Position numbers and translations under genes: made by a program | Assembly (NCBI GenBank): GCA_017461445.1 | Contig: JAFTXW010000003.1 | Location: forward strand, 43,333-107,332 | Length of the DNA stretch: 64,000 bases | Source of the DNA: Oscillospiraceae bacterium | GTDB lineage: Bacteria > Bacillota > Clostridia > Oscillospirales > Oscillospiraceae | Direction of reading: 5' to 3' | The notes under the pieces: model-generated | The model's database searches: none | Told to the model about the DNA's origin: nothing | Seen by the model: only the letters and a program-made list of their open reading frames with translations | In this document: positions 3,615-60,123 of the stretch, one piece after another | Position numbering within the stretch: position 1 is the stretch's first letter | Layout: each line of letters begins with the position of its first letter

Positions 3615-3755
3615 GTAGGGGAGGGTCTTGACCCTCCCGCCAAAAATCTGTAAGGATTTTTGGATTTTCCGAAGGAAAACAAATTGTTATCGCCTAATGG
3701 CGATGTGATTTTGCCTTTTGGCAAAATCACCGGGAGGGTCAAGACCCTCCCCTAC
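3615..3755. repeat. Multi-hairpin palindromic element, family A copy 1
   Basis: Perfect 25-bp inverted ends (GTAGGGGAGGGTCTTGACCC and onward), each end itself an imperfect palindrome. Inside are four separate hairpins: CCAAAAATC/GGATTTTTGG, TTTTCC/GGAAAA, ATCGCC/GGCGAT and GATTTTGCC/GGCAAAATC. It lies between the divergently transcribed micro-operon and tadA. The 3474-3830 gap otherwise holds only the tadA promoter. Confidence 0.9.
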
Positions 3756-11485: not shown

Positions 11486-11515
11486 TGTAGGGCGGGGTCA
11501 TGACCCCGCCCTACA
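11486..11515. repeat. Family A element, bare palindrome (GGGGTC type)
   Basis: A perfect 30-bp palindrome, TGTAGGGCGGGGTCA and its complement. It has no internal cargo. Lies between the convergent polysaccharide operon and AEC transporter gene. As a palindrome it could form a stem in either transcript. Confidence 0.9.
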
Positions 11516-15808: not shown

Positions 15809-15950
15809 GCGTAGGGGCGACCCTTGCGGTCGCCCGGTGATTTTGCCCGAAAGGCAAAATCACACCGCCGCAGGCGGCACAAATTTTGATTGCCCTTACG
15901 GGCAATGGCACCCTACGGGTGCCCGGGTGCCCGCAAGGGTCGCCCCTGCG
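15809..15950. repeat. Multi-hairpin palindromic element, family A (GCGACC type)
   Basis: Left arm GCGTAGGGGCGACCCTTGCG, right arm CGCAAGGGTCGCCCCTGCG, slightly diverged. Inside: GTGATTTTGCC/GGCAAAATCAC, CCGCC/GGCGG, ATTGCCC/GGGCAAT and GGCACCC/GGGTGCC hairpins. The first hairpin is the same module as in the copies at 3615 and 52411, although the arms differ. Between the GNAT gene and the divergent radical SAM gene. Confidence 0.9.
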
Positions 15951-16980: not shown

Positions 16981-17108
16981 GTAGGGGAGGGTCTTGACCC
17001 TCCCGGGCATCCGAAGGATGCCGTTGACCGAAGGTCAATAGGAAATGGAACGTCCTTGCGGACGTTGCGATGCTTCGCATCGCCGGGAGGGTCAAGACCC
17101 TCCCCTAC
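16981..17108. repeat. Multi-hairpin palindromic element, family A (GAGGGTC type)
   Basis: Perfect inverted arms (GTAGGGGAGGGTCTTGACCC and onward). Inside: GGCATCC/GGATGCC, TTGACC/GGTCAA, AACGTCC/GGACGTT and GCGATGC/GCATCGC hairpins, each with a loop of four bases or fewer. Lies between the radical SAM gene and tldD. Confidence 0.92.
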
Positions 17109-19986: not shown

Positions 19987-20014
19987 GTAGGGGAGGGTCG
20001 AGACCCTCCCCTAC
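19987..20014. repeat. Family A element, bare palindrome (GAGGGTC type)
   Basis: GTAGGGGAGGGTC-GA-GACCCTCCCCTAC: 13-bp arms with a 2-nt centre and no cargo. It shows the basic unit into which other copies carry insertions. Lies between convergent tldE and the alanyl-tRNA editing gene. Confidence 0.92.
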
Positions 20015-21203: not shown

Positions 21204-21342
21204 GCGTAGGGGCGACCCTTGCGGTCGCCCGTTGCGATGCGCAGCATCGCACAAAATGGCTTCCCCCGGGGAAGGGATTTACCGCCTTTGGCGGTGCGAT
21301 TTGTTCCAAATCGCCGGGCGACCGCAAGGGTCGCCCCTACGC
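21204..21342. repeat. Multi-hairpin palindromic element, family A (GCGACC type)
   Basis: Perfect 28-bp inverted arms (GCGTAGGGGCGACCCTTGCG and onward). Inside: TGCGATGC/GCATCGCA, CTTCCCC/GGGGAAG, ACCGCC/GGCGGT and GCGATTTG/CAAATCGC hairpins. It lies between the CsoR-like gene and the alanyl-tRNA editing gene, both on the minus strand. Confidence 0.93.
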
Positions 21343-21732: not shown

Positions 21733-21750
21733 AGCCGCACCCCTTTCCTG

Positions 21751-21825
21751 AGTTGAAAATGGAAAATTGAAAATTGAAAATTATTCTTCACGCCATTTTC
21801 AATTTTCAATTTTAAATTTTCAATT
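21751..21825. repeat. TTGAAAATTG-ladder palindromic element (copy 2)
   Basis: Left ladder GTTGAAAATGGAAAATTG, right inverse ladder TTTTCAATTTTCAATTT. It begins about 20 nt upstream of the CsoR-like start, where its promoter or leader should be. Confidence 0.8.
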
Positions 21826-21893
21826 CGCATTATACTGCAAATCCCCGCCCCTGGCAAGCCCTCCCGGGGGATAATTGGGGAAAAATAAATGTT

Positions 21894-22642: not shown

Positions 22643-22778
22643 GCGTAGGGGCGACCCTTGCGGTCGCCCGGCGATGCGGAACGCATCGCTCCGCCGAAGG
22701 CGGCTGTTTTTTTTGATTGCCCTACCGGGCAATGGCACCCTTTGGGTGCCCGGGCGACCGCAAGGGTCGCCCCTACGC
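22643..22778. repeat. Multi-hairpin palindromic element, family A (GCGACC type)
   Basis: Arms GCGTAGGGGCGACCCTTGCG and inverse. Inside: GCGATGCG/CGCATCGC, CCGCC/GGCGG, ATTGCCC/GGGCAAT and GGCACCC/GGGTGCC. Three of the four hairpins are the same modules as in the copy at 15809, with different loops. Between the terminator and the secA promoter. Confidence 0.93.
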
Positions 22779-25669: not shown

Positions 25670-25760
25670 AATTGAAAATTGAGAATTGAAAGTTGAAAAT
25701 TTTGAAATCATTGCGAAGCAATACCACAATTTTCAATTTTACAACTTTCAATTTTCAATT
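25670..25760. repeat. TTGAAAATTG-ladder palindromic element (copy 3)
   Basis: Ladder, central hairpin ATTGCGAAGCAAT, then TACCACAATTTTCAATTTTA and the inverse ladder. Fills the secA-pgeF gap. It is open in the pgeF frame, which gives a false 30-codon extension. Confidence 0.85.
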
Positions 25761-25775
25761 CATCGGAGTATCATC

Positions 25776-28170: not shown

Positions 28171-28247
28171 GTAGGGGAGGGTCAGCTATGCACTAAGCAT
28201 CCGTAAGCAGCTTCGCTGCAACGGCTGCTAAGAAGACCCTCCCCTAC
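28171..28247. repeat. Family A element carrying the 51-nt nested cassette
   Basis: GTAGGGGAGGGTC (28171-28183), a 51-nt insert (28184-28234), then GACCCTCCCCTAC (28235-28247). It equals the bare palindrome at 19987-20014 with its 2-nt centre replaced by the cassette. The cassette includes CACTAAGCATCCGTAAGCAG and CTTCGCTGCAACGGCTGCTA, and folds on itself around TTCG. Lies between two lipoprotein genes. Confidence 0.93.
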
Positions 28248-41326: not shown

Positions 41327-41651
41327 AAGTGGCCGTAAGTCGCTTTGCTCCAACGGCCACTAAGCCCCGGGGGGGAAGGTGGCCCGCAGGGCCGGATGAG
41401 GAATGGCGTGCACTGTAGGCTAGTAGGAGGCCTGCAATAGATGCGAAACTGTAAGCTTTCCGCCCGCATTCCTCATCAGTCTGAAATTCCGGCCAAGTGT
41501 GGCCGAAATTTCAGCCAGCTTCCCCCCGGGGGAAGCCATTTTGTGCGATGCTGCGCATCGCATCGGGCGACCGCAAGGGTCGCCCCTACGCGAAAGGTCT
41601 GCATAGGAAACCAGGGTTTTCTGACTTTTCCGCTATTGATTCGCATTTAAA
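41327..41651. repeat. Composite repeat region between the acyl-CoA ligase and PAS regulator genes
   Basis: No gene is seen in the 443-nt gap. It holds a diverged copy of the nested cassette (41332-41364, GCACTAAGTGGCCGTAAGTC and GCTCCAACGGCCACTAAG), a long-range inverted pair GATGAGGAATG (near 41395) / CATTCCTCATC (near 41467), a hairpin CGGCCAAGTGTGGCCG, CTTCCCC/GGGGAAG and GCGATGC/GCATCGC hairpins, one right-hand GCGACC arm of family A (41564-41592), and a family G arm (41593-41651). No left family A arm is visible, so the element is one-armed or degraded. Confidence 0.75.
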
Positions 41652-48361: not shown

Positions 48362-48493
48362 CCTTCCCCCAGGATGCGGATCAAGGGTTGAAACGTTAGA
48401 AAACCTCGATTTACGATGCAGGTCTCTCGCGTAGGGGCGACCCTTGCGGTCGCCCCTACGCGGGGATGTGCTCATTTCAACTATTGATTTGCA
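48362..48493. repeat. Family G element with a bare family A palindrome at its centre
   Basis: Outer imperfect inverted arms of about 32 bp: CTTCCCCCAGGATGCGGATC (48364 on) against the reverse complement CTTCCCCCGGATGCAAATCA of the right side, continuing into GTTGAAA on both. At the centre is CGCGTAGGGGCGACC-CTTGC-GGTCGCCCCTACGCG (48428-48462). The element lies between fabG and fabF inside the operon. Just outside on the right is GGTGCTGCCGCACC. Confidence 0.82.
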
Positions 48494-52410: not shown

Positions 52411-52604
52411 TGTAGGGGAGGGTCTTGACCCTCCCGGTGATTTTGCCCAAAAGGCAAAATCACATCGCCGCAAGGCGATAATTATTTTATTTTCCTTCGG
52501 AAAATCCAAAAATCCTTATGGATTTTTGGCGGGAGGGTCAGCTATGCACTAAGCATCCGTAAGCAGCTTTGCTGCAACGGCTGCTAAGAAGACCCTCCCC
52601 TACA
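52411..52604. repeat. Multi-hairpin palindromic element, family A, with nested cassette
   Basis: Left arm TGTAGGGGAGGGTCTTGACC, then GTGATTTTGCC/GGCAAAATCAC, ATCGCC/GGCGAT, ATTTTCC/GGAAAAT and CCAAAAATCC/GGATTTTTGG hairpins. The right arm GGGAGGGTC...GACCCTCCCCTACA is split by the 51-nt cassette seen at 28184-28234 (one base different). The hairpins are those of the 3615 copy in reverse order, so the cargo block is inverted relative to the arms' flanks. Confidence 0.93.
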
Positions 52605-54562: not shown

Positions 54563-54677
54563 AGTTGAAAGTTGAAAATTGAAAATTGAAAGTTACGGTG
54601 TCGGCTTCGCCGACTATTTAAAATCATCCCCGAAGGGGATACCACAACTTTCAACTTTACATTTTCAACTTTCCACT
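54563..54677. repeat. TTGAAAATTG-ladder palindromic element (copy 4)
   Basis: Ladder, two hairpins GTCGGCTTCGCCGAC and ATCCCCGAAGGGGAT, then TACCACAACTTTCAACTTTA and the inverse ladder. Part of the 297-nt rpsO-pnp gap, which holds no gene. Confidence 0.85.
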
Positions 54678-54685
54678 TATCATCC

Positions 54686-54752
54686 CGGGAGATATTTAGC
54701 AGTTGAAAGTGATGCCGAATATCGGCGTTAGTTTCAAGTGCTAAACCTCCCG
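54686..54752. repeat. 67-nt long imperfect palindrome upstream of pnp
   Basis: CGGGAG at the left pairs with CTCCCG at the right; inside, TTTAGCAGTTGAAA pairs with TTTCAAGTGCTAAA, and GATGCCGAATATCGGCGTT closes the top. A nearly continuous stem of about 30 bp. Confidence 0.8.
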
Positions 54753-54761
54753 AACCAACCA

Positions 54762-54833
54762 AATTGAAAATCGAAAATGAAAAATTGAAAATTTCATCTA
54801 TAATTTTCAACTTTCAACTTTCAATTTTCAACT
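54762..54833. repeat. TTGAAAATTG-ladder palindromic element (copy 5)
   Basis: AATTGAAAATCGAAAATGAA on the left and CAACTTTCAACTTTCAATTT on the right, without a GC hairpin core. It ends 26 nt before pnp and is open in the pnp frame. Confidence 0.8.
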
Positions 54834-54859
54834 ACCAAAATTTCAAGGAGGTTAAACCA

Positions 54860-57671: not shown

Positions 57672-57857
57672 TGTAGGGCGGGGTCATGACCCCGCCGAAC
57701 AGGTTGCGATTTCTGCCGTACTCATACAGTGCGACACGGCAGTGTTCCTAAAATCGCTGCTACTCAATCCCGTTAGTGCGTCGGCGGGGATCATCTTAGC
57801 AGCCGTTGCAGCGAAGCTGCTTACGGATGCTTAGTGCATAGCTGACCCCGCCCTACA
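57672..57857. repeat. Family A element (GGGGTC type) with nested cassette in the opposite orientation
   Basis: Left arm TGTAGGGCGGGGTCATGACC, right end GACCCCGCCCTACA. The 51-nt-type cassette (complement of CACTAAGCATCCGTAAGCAG and so on) lies just inside the right end at about 57794-57842, inverted relative to the copies at 28184 and 52411. The middle holds unique sequence with a longer hairpin (GCGATTT...AAAATCGC enclosing CTGCCGT/ACGGCAG). Between the nicotinamidase-like gene and murI. Confidence 0.9.
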
Positions 57858-58646: not shown

Positions 58647-58837
58647 TGTAGGGGAGGGTCATGACCCTCCCGCCAAAAATCCGAAAGGATTTTTGGATTT
58701 TCCGAAGGAAAATAAATTATAATCGCCTGTGGCGATGTAATTTTGCCTGTGGGCAAAATTACCGGGAGGGTCAGCTATGCACTAAGCATCCGTAAGCAGC
58801 TTCGCTGCAACGGCTGCTAAGAAGACCCTCTCCTACA
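58647..58837. repeat. Multi-hairpin palindromic element, family A, with nested cassette
   Basis: Left arm TGTAGGGGAGGGTCATGACC. Hairpins CCAAAAATCC/GGATTTTTGG, TTTTCC/GGAAAA, ATCGCC/GGCGAT and AATTTTGCC/GGCAAAATT in the same order as the copy at 3615. The right arm is interrupted after GGGAGGGTC by the 51-nt cassette and resumes as GACCCTCTCCTACA. Thus it equals the 3615 copy plus the cassette. Confidence 0.94.
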
Positions 58838-59488: not shown

Positions 59489-60111
59489 ACTACGAAAGCC
59501 TGATTTTTGACATTGACGGCACCCTCTGGGATTCCCGGGCGTTGGTGGCCGAGGGATATAATATCCAGCTGAAAAAGGAGGGCCTTGACCACCTGTGCGT
59601 TACCGCCGAGGACTTGAAGCCCCTGTTCGGCAAGGTGATGACGGAGATCGCCGACGCGATTTTGGCATCTATTCCCGAATCGGAGCGGTATGACCTGATG
59701 GAGCGGTGCATGGATACGGAAAACCGGTATCTCTTTGAAAACCCCTGCGACATCGGCTATCCCGGCATCCGGGAGACCATGGCGAAGCTTGCCCAAAAGC
59801 ACCGGCTTTTCATCGTCAGCAACAGCCAGTGTGGGTACCCGGAGCTGTGCATCAGCAAGCTGGGTCTGACCCCTTACATCACCGGGCATCTTTGCTTCGG
59901 CGACACAGGCACCGGCAAGTGCCAAACCATCCGCACCCTGATGGCAAAATACGGCATCGACAGTGCCGCCTACATCGGCGACACCCAGGGGGATTACGAG
60001 GCCACGGTGGAGGCGGGGATCCCCTTCGTCTGGTGCACCTACGGCTTTGGCACTCCGGAGGGGTATGAGGCCAAGGTGGATCGGTTTGAAGAGCTGAAAG
60101 ACCTATTATGA
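59485..60111 (+). CDS. HAD family hydrolase, phosphoglycolate phosphatase-like
   Basis: A 208-residue HAD phosphatase: motif I FDIDGTLWDS (nucleophile Asp, about 8-17), a four-helix cap, motif II FIVSNSQ, and motif IV YIGDTQGDYEAT. Coupled to udk by an ATGA overlap. The last bases (CTATTATGACCCCGCCCTAC) show that the stop codon is supplied by a half-copy of the GGGGTC-type family A repeat, so the C-terminus may have been trimmed by the repeat's arrival. Substrate unknown; a nucleotide is plausible by context. Confidence 0.9.
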   Translation: MNYESLIFDIDGTLWDSRALVAEGYNIQLKKEGLDHLCVTAEDLKPLFGKVMTEIADAILASIPESERYDLMERCMDTENRYLFENPCDIGYPGIRETMAKLAQKHRLFIVSNSQCGYPELCISKLGLTPYITGHLCFGDTGTGKCQTIRTLMAKYGIDSAAYIGDTQGDYEATVEAGIPFVWCTYGFGTPEGYEAKVDRFEELKDLL

Positions 60112-60123
60112 CCCCGCCCTACA
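60108..60123. repeat. Half-copy of a family A element (GGGGTC type)
   Basis: ATGACCCCGCCCTACA, matching the right half of the palindrome at 11486-11515. It overlaps the HAD gene's stop codon. No left half precedes it. Confidence 0.75.

Follow-up and report, generated by a model that had tools for sequence, protein, structure and literature searches.

The modular intergenic repeats of the window (the whole stretch of 64 kb of DNA that was analysed) are very probably REPINs, nonautonomous elements spread in trans by a RAYT transposase, with arrays of hairpins as their ends and a complete, RAYT-bearing element as their parent form. The GTAG foot, the perfect stem, the head-to-head pairing, the extragenic site, the scarcity of duplications, and the occurrence of the same palindrome on the flanks of a RAYT gene all indicate REP doublets, or REPINs. 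Among RAYT-associated REPINs they form a new and unusually elaborate type, whose ends are arrays of hairpins and whose parent was probably found in a sister species.

A preliminary description of the window had listed 14 copies with three related types of arms, and arms were present at all 14 places. The pattern GTAGGGGAGGGTC, with up to two mismatches, matched the window 21 times, versus 2.09 +/- 1.46 matches expected, and none of 100 shuffled sequences reached 21. Two arms and an insert are present in nine copies (starting at 3615, 15809, 16981, 21204, 22643, 28171, 52411, 57672, and 58647), three copies are bare palindromes of 28 to 35 bp without inner hairpins (11486, 19987, and 48428), and two are half copies (41564 and 60108). 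All 14 copies are located between predicted genes. Each arm is a hairpin by itself, with an outward GTAG foot and a perfect stem of 8 to 9 bp. The REP is GTAG-GGGAGGGTC-NN-GACCCTCCC in type 1, GTAG-GGGCGACC-NNNNN-GGTCGCCC in type 2, and GTAG-GGCGGGGTC-NN-GACCCCGCC in type 3, and all three types have a short palindrome with the tetranucleotide GTAG at its foot. Outward GTAG at both ends indicates a head-to-head REP doublet. The full-size copies indeed carry short perfect hairpins, mostly two to four each. The hairpin-filled form accounts for 7 of the 14 copies, excluding the copy at 28171, with module X alone in its loop, and that at 57672, with a different spacer plus module X.

In the element at 52411 to 52604, the left REP of type 1 (GTAG plus GGGAGGGTC-TT-GACCCTCCC; 52412 to 52435, plus strand) is followed on the same strand by hairpin A (GTGATTTTGCC/GGCAAAATCAC; 52437 to 52463), which covaries over the copies, and by hairpin B (ATCGCC/GGCGAT; 52464 to 52479), which covaries only with two species pooled. 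An unpaired AT-rich linker (52480 to 52488, plus strand) stands where a complete element from a sister species has its RAYT gene. Hairpin C (ATTTTCC/GGAAAAT; 52489 to 52505) and hairpin D (CCAAAAATCC/GGATTTTTGG; 52506 to 52529), both on the plus strand, are supported by sequence, fold, and covariation. The right REP is inverted (52531 to 52603, minus strand), and its loop is enlarged by module X (52540 to 52590).

The other type 1 copies are a doublet with a full A-B-C-D spacer in which A adjoins the right-hand REP (3615 to 3755, minus strand), a doublet with the hairpin set that is usual under type 2 arms (16981 to 17108, minus strand), a solo palindrome of 28 bp (19987 to 20014, unstranded), a solo with module X (28184 to 28234) within its loop (28171 to 28247, unstranded), and a doublet with a full spacer and module X in the loop of the right REP (58647 to 58837, minus strand). 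Type 2 is represented by a mosaic doublet with A from the type 1 set and B-C-D from the type 2 set (15809 to 15950, plus strand), two doublets with four hairpins (21204 to 21342, minus strand; 22643 to 22778, plus strand), the right half of a doublet with one inner hairpin just upstream of its coordinates (41564 to 41592, minus strand), and a solo palindrome (48428 to 48462, unstranded). The type 3 copies are a solo palindrome (11486 to 11515, unstranded), a doublet without the four-hairpin set and with module X in opposite orientation in the loop of its right REP (57672 to 57857, plus strand), and a half (60108 to 60123, minus strand). A different repeat family, AT-rich inverted arrays of TTGAAAATTGAAA-like units, occurs in the window at 884 to 974, 21750 to 21826, 25670 to 25761, and 54563 to 54838.

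In the whole genome (G000; 2.66 Mb in 61 contigs, 90.8% complete), 69, 55, and 15 exact REPs of types 1, 2, and 3, respectively, were found, and the reversed-pattern control gave 0 for each type. Contigs C43 and C46 repeat parts of contig C24, and some DNA is present twice in the assembly; for this reason some exact REPs are counted twice. Repeats from the duplicated contigs made up 4 of the 67 listed doublets and were removed for the unique counts. Stretches picked around the type 1 and type 2 matches contained 30 unique type 1 and 22 unique type 2 doublets (at least 100 bp, with two inverted REPs and GTAG outward), along with 7 type 1 solos and 1 type 2 solo; the window holds 1 doublet, 1 solo, and 1 half of type 3. 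The type with a resident RAYT, type 2, is the least reduced to solos, which at these small numbers fits the reading of singlets as remnants that was given for the REPINs of Pseudomonas fluorescens (Bertels and Rainey 2011, PMC3116915). The neighboring genes of the 52 doublets, by rough gene calls, were codirectional in 37 cases, divergent in 7, convergent in 3, and undecided in 5.

The arms recur genome-wide and in sister species, not in the window alone, and their distribution among species is patchy, both as would be anticipated for the modular family first proposed. Among 60 genomes, with the own genome included, exact REPs of types 1, 2, and 3 occurred in 7, 3, and 9 genomes, respectively. 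Exact type 3 REPs numbered 40 in G009, 15 in G027, and 10 in G033. Genome G018 (92% complete) has 30 exact type 3 REPs but no RAYT match at an E value of 1e-8, so that no transposase is visible there for this REP family. When 61 genomes of the genus were searched with a 2.5-kb query, the genes matched at 83 to 84% identity at most and nothing matched across the element, and this low identity of the tested genes ruled out a base-level comparison with empty sites. An abutting direct repeat was absent at the ends of 29 of the 30 type 1 doublets. A 2-bp repeat was present in 18 of the 22 type 2 doublets and none in the other 4; it matches the conserved CGC/GCG just outside GTAG/CTAC. Across 60 type 1 ends, the base preceding GTAG was never G. 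The scarce end duplications and the lack of G before GTAG are in line with IS200/IS605-type chemistry.

The genome encodes a single PF01797 protein, on another contig than the window. The earlier statement that no transposase is present therefore holds for the window and not for the genome, and the suggestion that mobility, if any, would be in trans is supported. This RAYT (L001) has 164 amino acids, the motif MPNHIHI, and a Y1_Tnp domain with the HUH motif (PF01797, 36 bits versus a cut-off of 23). Its best NCBIfam match was REP_Tyr_transpos (E value of 4.6e-21, 75.2 bits versus a cut-off of 80). M-P-x-H-x-H was invariant in all 19 RAYTs aligned, and the first PDB match of their profile was 4er8, TnpArep. 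The gene is located between two complete type 2 doublets and not in a clean REP-A-B-gene-C-D-REP element. It forms a long branch on the RAYT tree of the genus, and no RAYT for type 1, the most abundant arm, or for type 3 was detected in this 90.8% complete genome. The position outside a clean element, the long branch, the NCBIfam score below the cut-off, and the missing RAYTs for types 1 and 3 count against the REPIN reading.

A RAYT match at an E value of 1e-8 was found in 78 of 136 genomes of the genus, and 78 unique RAYT loci remained after 11 of 89 were dropped as repeats. Outward GTAG REPs were present on both sides within 450 bp at 32 of the 78 loci, and 70 loci had at least one GTAG REP, either flanking or internal. 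RAYTs flanked by the same REP were found for type 2 in the own genome and for types 1 and 3 in sister species only. Exact type 1 REPs flank L109, L267, L306, and L329; exact type 3 REPs lie on both sides of L061, L302, and L305 and on one side of L108 and L111, and RAYTs with type 3 flanks, exact on at least one side, occur in G009, G027, and G033. On a tree of 75 RAYTs (3 short loci of the 78 dropped, insert columns removed, many forks unresolved), the 29 REP stem types of 68 labelled rows gave 32 changes. The minimum was 28, the mean after shuffling was 55.7, and the lowest of 200 shuffles was 51. The REP stem type follows the RAYT tree, indicating that arms and enzyme belong together. The view that the repeats are something other than ordinary REPs was half right: the multihairpin spacer is unusual, and the arms are classical REPs, with a GTAG foot, a perfect stem, and a RAYT that has this palindrome on its flanks.

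A complete element was present in a sister species (G066; L267). Its order is REP-A-B-AGGAGG-ATG-RAYT-stop-C-D-REP' over 596 bp, with an intact frame and type 1 arms, and the type 1 loci retrieved from the same genome include 7 doublets or near-doublets that have hairpin arrays but no gene. In gene-less copies, the linker occupies the position that the RAYT gene has in the complete element. Given the order REP-A-B-RAYT-C-D-REP in the sister species, the four-hairpin REPIN reads as a RAYT element with a short linker in place of its gene. A second element, REP-A-B-RAYT-REP in G025 (L109), has a broken frame and hairpins on one side only. Among the 22 REP-bounded RAYT elements listed, a two-hairpin array beside the REP was seen only in L267 (both sides) and L109 (one side). 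Isolated hairpins occur in L110, L332, and L335, and the remaining elements have none, including L306 and L329 with their type 1 REPs. Since the latter two are type 1 RAYTs, the array is a feature of a few lineages and not of the REP type, which slightly lowers the confidence in the REPIN reading. Both hosts of array-bearing RAYT elements, G066 and G025, also have hairpin-array doublets, and G009 has a type 3 RAYT element without hairpins and type 3 doublets without the A-B-C-D plan. The 8% contamination of the G066 assembly and the 70% completeness of the G025 assembly count against the REPIN reading with this parent. The type 1 RAYT of G025 is broken (L109:1568-1903) despite 37 exact type 1 REPs in that genome.

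The recurring spacer order in the doublets of the own genome is A-B-linker-C-D; in several type 2 elements, one or more hairpins are missing or the middle is another one. Perfect hairpins with a stem of at least 6 were counted in unique doublets without inserts. The mean was 3.5 in type 1 spacers (22 elements, range 2 to 4) versus 0.21 in dinucleotide shuffles, and 2.67 in type 2 spacers (18 elements, range 1 to 4) versus 0.12. The type 1 spacers of G025 had a mean of 3.18 (n = 11) versus 0.17 after shuffling, and all 11 doublets retrieved from that genome contain 2 to 4 hairpins. In G066 the plan is kept and the stem letters differ; the order was found in three species, with compensatory changes. 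Long, variable spacers that lack the A-B-C-D plan are found in the type 3 doublets retrieved from G018, G009, and G025, the type 1 doublets of G022 have spacers of 20 to 27 nt, those of G031 have other hairpins, and G033 has one type 3 doublet with A- and B-like hairpins.

Covariation was tested by swapping the 5' and 3' hairpin arms between elements in 5000 permutations. The pooled set comprised 28 elements from two species; all type 2 elements, 8 type 1 elements with inserts, and 5 type 1 elements with another hairpin set were left out. Pairing dropped from 9.54 with own arms to 8.71 of 10 with swapped arms in hairpin A, from 5.75 to 5.26 of 6 in B, from 6.46 to 5.87 of 7 in C, and from 8.75 to 7.72 of 9 in D, and 0 of 5000 permutations reached the observed value for each hairpin. 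Within single species, the count was 52 of 5000 for A in G000, 5 of 5000 for C in G025, and 0 in the remaining tests of A, C, and D. Hairpin B was not significant within either species (352 of 5000 in G000 and 5000 of 5000 in G025), which counts against the REPIN reading with selected hairpins. The covariation of the stems supports one modular family with interchangeable inner hairpins.

When folded as single-stranded DNA, two elements of the window gave z scores of -14.9 and -13.8, far beyond the shuffles. In the predicted lowest-energy fold, the two REPs are paired together with the four hairpins on top, and folds with local pairs only cost 12 to 14 kcal/mol on average relative to it. This fold differs from the form that RAYT is thought to cut and counts against the REPIN reading. 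The notion that the inner hairpins hold the two REPs apart was not supported, because the long-range stem wins by the same 12 to 14 kcal/mol on average with hairpin spacers; its advantage with the variable type 3 spacers was 15.5 kcal/mol.

The observation that the same hairpins occur under different arm types was confirmed when the doublets of the genome were compared. The type 2-style hairpin set is found under type 1 arms in four doublets (16981 in the window, L078:8004, L080:14177, and L086:534), a type 2-like A-B half is joined to a type 1 C-D half at L101:1320, and a type 1-like A is joined to a type 2 B-C-D at 15809. Hairpin sets may therefore pass between arm types by recombination between doublets. 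Module X, an imperfect hairpin of about 51 nt, enlarges the loop of one REP and occurs with type 1 and type 3 arms; in the window it is found at 28184 to 28234, at 52540 to 52590, and in REP loops of the copies at 57672 to 57857 (type 3; REP at 57673) and 58647 to 58837. Across 60 genomes it had 13 matches (up to two mismatches), all in the own genome, and at the 12 loci retrieved (10 after removal of repeated contigs) every copy lay within a REP loop. An independent mobile element was rejected on these grounds, and module X is regarded as a long-loop REP variant. A second loop insert, with an ATTGCC..GGCAAT core, was seen in type 1 and type 2 REP loops (L065:624-817, L067:6310-6509, and L071:2020-2215), and another palindromic repeat is nested in the middle of the spacer in three type 2 doublets (L066:817-1087, L075:633-926, and L092:1643-1894).

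The perfection of the stems may have a mutational cause, such as template switching in quasi-palindromes or conversion between copies, with no selection for folding. Such processes would account for the frequent change of both arms at once, the free variation of the loops, and the recurrence of near-identical hairpin sets within one genome. They are harder to reconcile with an A-B-linker-C-D order that is kept in three species despite different stem letters and with one complete element that has hairpins on either side of the gene, and a mutational origin is considered possible but rather unlikely. It alters the cause of the hairpins and not the identity of the elements, so that its odds overlap with those of the preferred REPIN reading.

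The strong covariation of the stems would also suit a structured RNA family, either a regulatory RNA or an mRNA 3' stabilizer, retained for its transcript, as would the 37 of 52 doublets between codirectional genes (by rough gene calls) and the start of the copies at 52411 and 58647 only 4 to 5 nt past a predicted stop codon. No Rfam family matched the window at the gathering threshold (0 matches with 4227 families), and on the presumed transcript strand the pairs broken on one side were G.T in 3 and A.C in 4 of 29 mismatches, a comparison of low power. Seven of the 52 doublets lie between divergent genes, bare palindromes without a spacer also occur, and the arms follow the RAYT tree, all of which makes an RNA family improbable. 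Of the structured DNA/RNA first envisaged, the RNA reading gains nothing, with no Rfam match in the window and no G.T excess in the low-power comparison. Being REPINs would not preclude a role in mRNA stability acquired later. Inverted ends, an internal-deletion form, and a high copy number are likewise features of MITEs of a DDE transposase or of elements moved by an ordinary IS200 transposase, but target-site duplications were absent in 29 of 30 type 1 doublets, the 13 IS200-like PF01797 loci retrieved (127 to 145 bits) had no perfect GTAG REP, and RAYT loci carry the same REPs. This origin is very improbable.

The preferred reading, REPINs, places the repeats among known systems. With the REPINs of P. 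fluorescens (PMC3116915) they share two inverted REPs with a spacer, an extragenic location, a specific RAYT, compensatory spacer changes, singlets interpreted as remnants, and presumed folding into either one long hairpin or a clover. Those units are about 70 to 80 bp, with spacer arms that pair into one hairpin, whereas the units here are mostly 130 to 146 bp, with two hairpins per end and a central linker. The GTAG REP dimers and REPtrons (Di Nocera 2013, PMC3733652) likewise have the GTAG tag, perfect stems, head-to-head dimers, loops of different lengths (dimers are known in which a long-loop REP is paired with a short-loop one), hybrid dimers, structured spacers, RAYTs with repeat-specific REPs, and several families per genome. 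In the sections considered, the spacers of that report either have ends complementary to each other or contain one or two stem-loops, and there is no mention of four hairpins in constant order or of a parental element that shares them; the abstract does not name Clostridia. RAYTs between two inverted REPs (Nunvar 2010, PMC2817692) share the REP-RAYT-REP unit and hybrids with REPs of two RAYTs. In the Stenotrophomonas clusters of that report, the inter-REP segments lack mutual homology, whereas the spacers here share their hairpin plan with the flanks of a RAYT gene. The BIMEs and TnpA_REP of Escherichia coli (Corneloup 2021, PMC8266576) have in common the HUH enzyme, the GTAG foot, and REP/iREP pairs; stems are bulged in the REPs of group 2 (E. 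coli), whereas those here are perfect, as described for group 3. Among the papers listed in a search limited to titles and the start of abstracts, with supplements and most subscription papers outside its scope, none described these repeats or RAYT genes with internal REPs.

The E. coli RAYT cuts the folded single-stranded REP and requires GTAG (PMC8266576). In the proposed mechanism, the RAYT (TnpA_REP), an HUH/tyrosine transposase, would act on single-stranded DNA by recognizing the GTAG foot together with the hairpin. In this lineage both ends of the element consist of three hairpins, the REP plus two. The complete element is REP-A-B-[RAYT gene]-C-D-REP, and the hairpin-filled repeats of the window share its ends but have a short AT-rich linker for the gene. 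Present or past movement was probably by RAYT via a single-stranded intermediate. The inner hairpins may help transposition by holding the strand in a conformation that RAYT can cut, and the bare 28-bp palindromes may be products of deletion between two REPs.

At least one REP was located within the coding region of 35 of the 78 RAYTs of the genus (e.g., L051, L057, L113, L285, L307, L308, L315, and L333). An inverted pair brackets the HUH motif in 22 of 78; the sense REP lies at codons 36 to 39 of the matched part and the inverted REP mostly at codons 86 to 107. Of 58 in-gene REPs, 49 start at a codon boundary. No in-gene REP was found in dinucleotide-shuffled genes over 20 rounds, and REP density was 1.67 per kb in RAYT genes versus 0.14 per kb more than 500 bp away. 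The two REPs of one gene differ by 0 to 1 of 13 letters in 22 of 22 cases, versus an average of 4.4 between genes. Inside and flanking REPs differ by at most one mismatch at 19 of 21 loci, and the in-gene pair changes with the REP type. In G109, the in-gene REP is present in 24 exact copies, four of them within two RAYT genes. By a slightly wider criterion, an inside REP was found at named loci in 56 of the best 80 of 509 relatives, a nonrandom sample. The own RAYT has no in-gene REP. REPs located in frame within other genes have been described before (PMC3733652).

The fixed A-B-linker-C-D order and the covarying stems mean that the spacer is not idle. The complete element beside gene-less copies in the same genome points concretely to internal deletion as the origin and supplies a parent that can be tested, and natural replicates are available in the genus, where the 68 labelled RAYT rows comprise 29 REP stem types. 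As a tentative proposal, held at somewhat less than even odds, recognition would be by hairpin arrays, with exchangeable three-hairpin end cassettes and REPINs derived by deletion, and recognition hairpins would also be built into the RAYT gene, bracketing the HUH core and changing with the REP type. If this is true, RAYT would read, cut, or regulate its own gene via the signals of its mobile copies.
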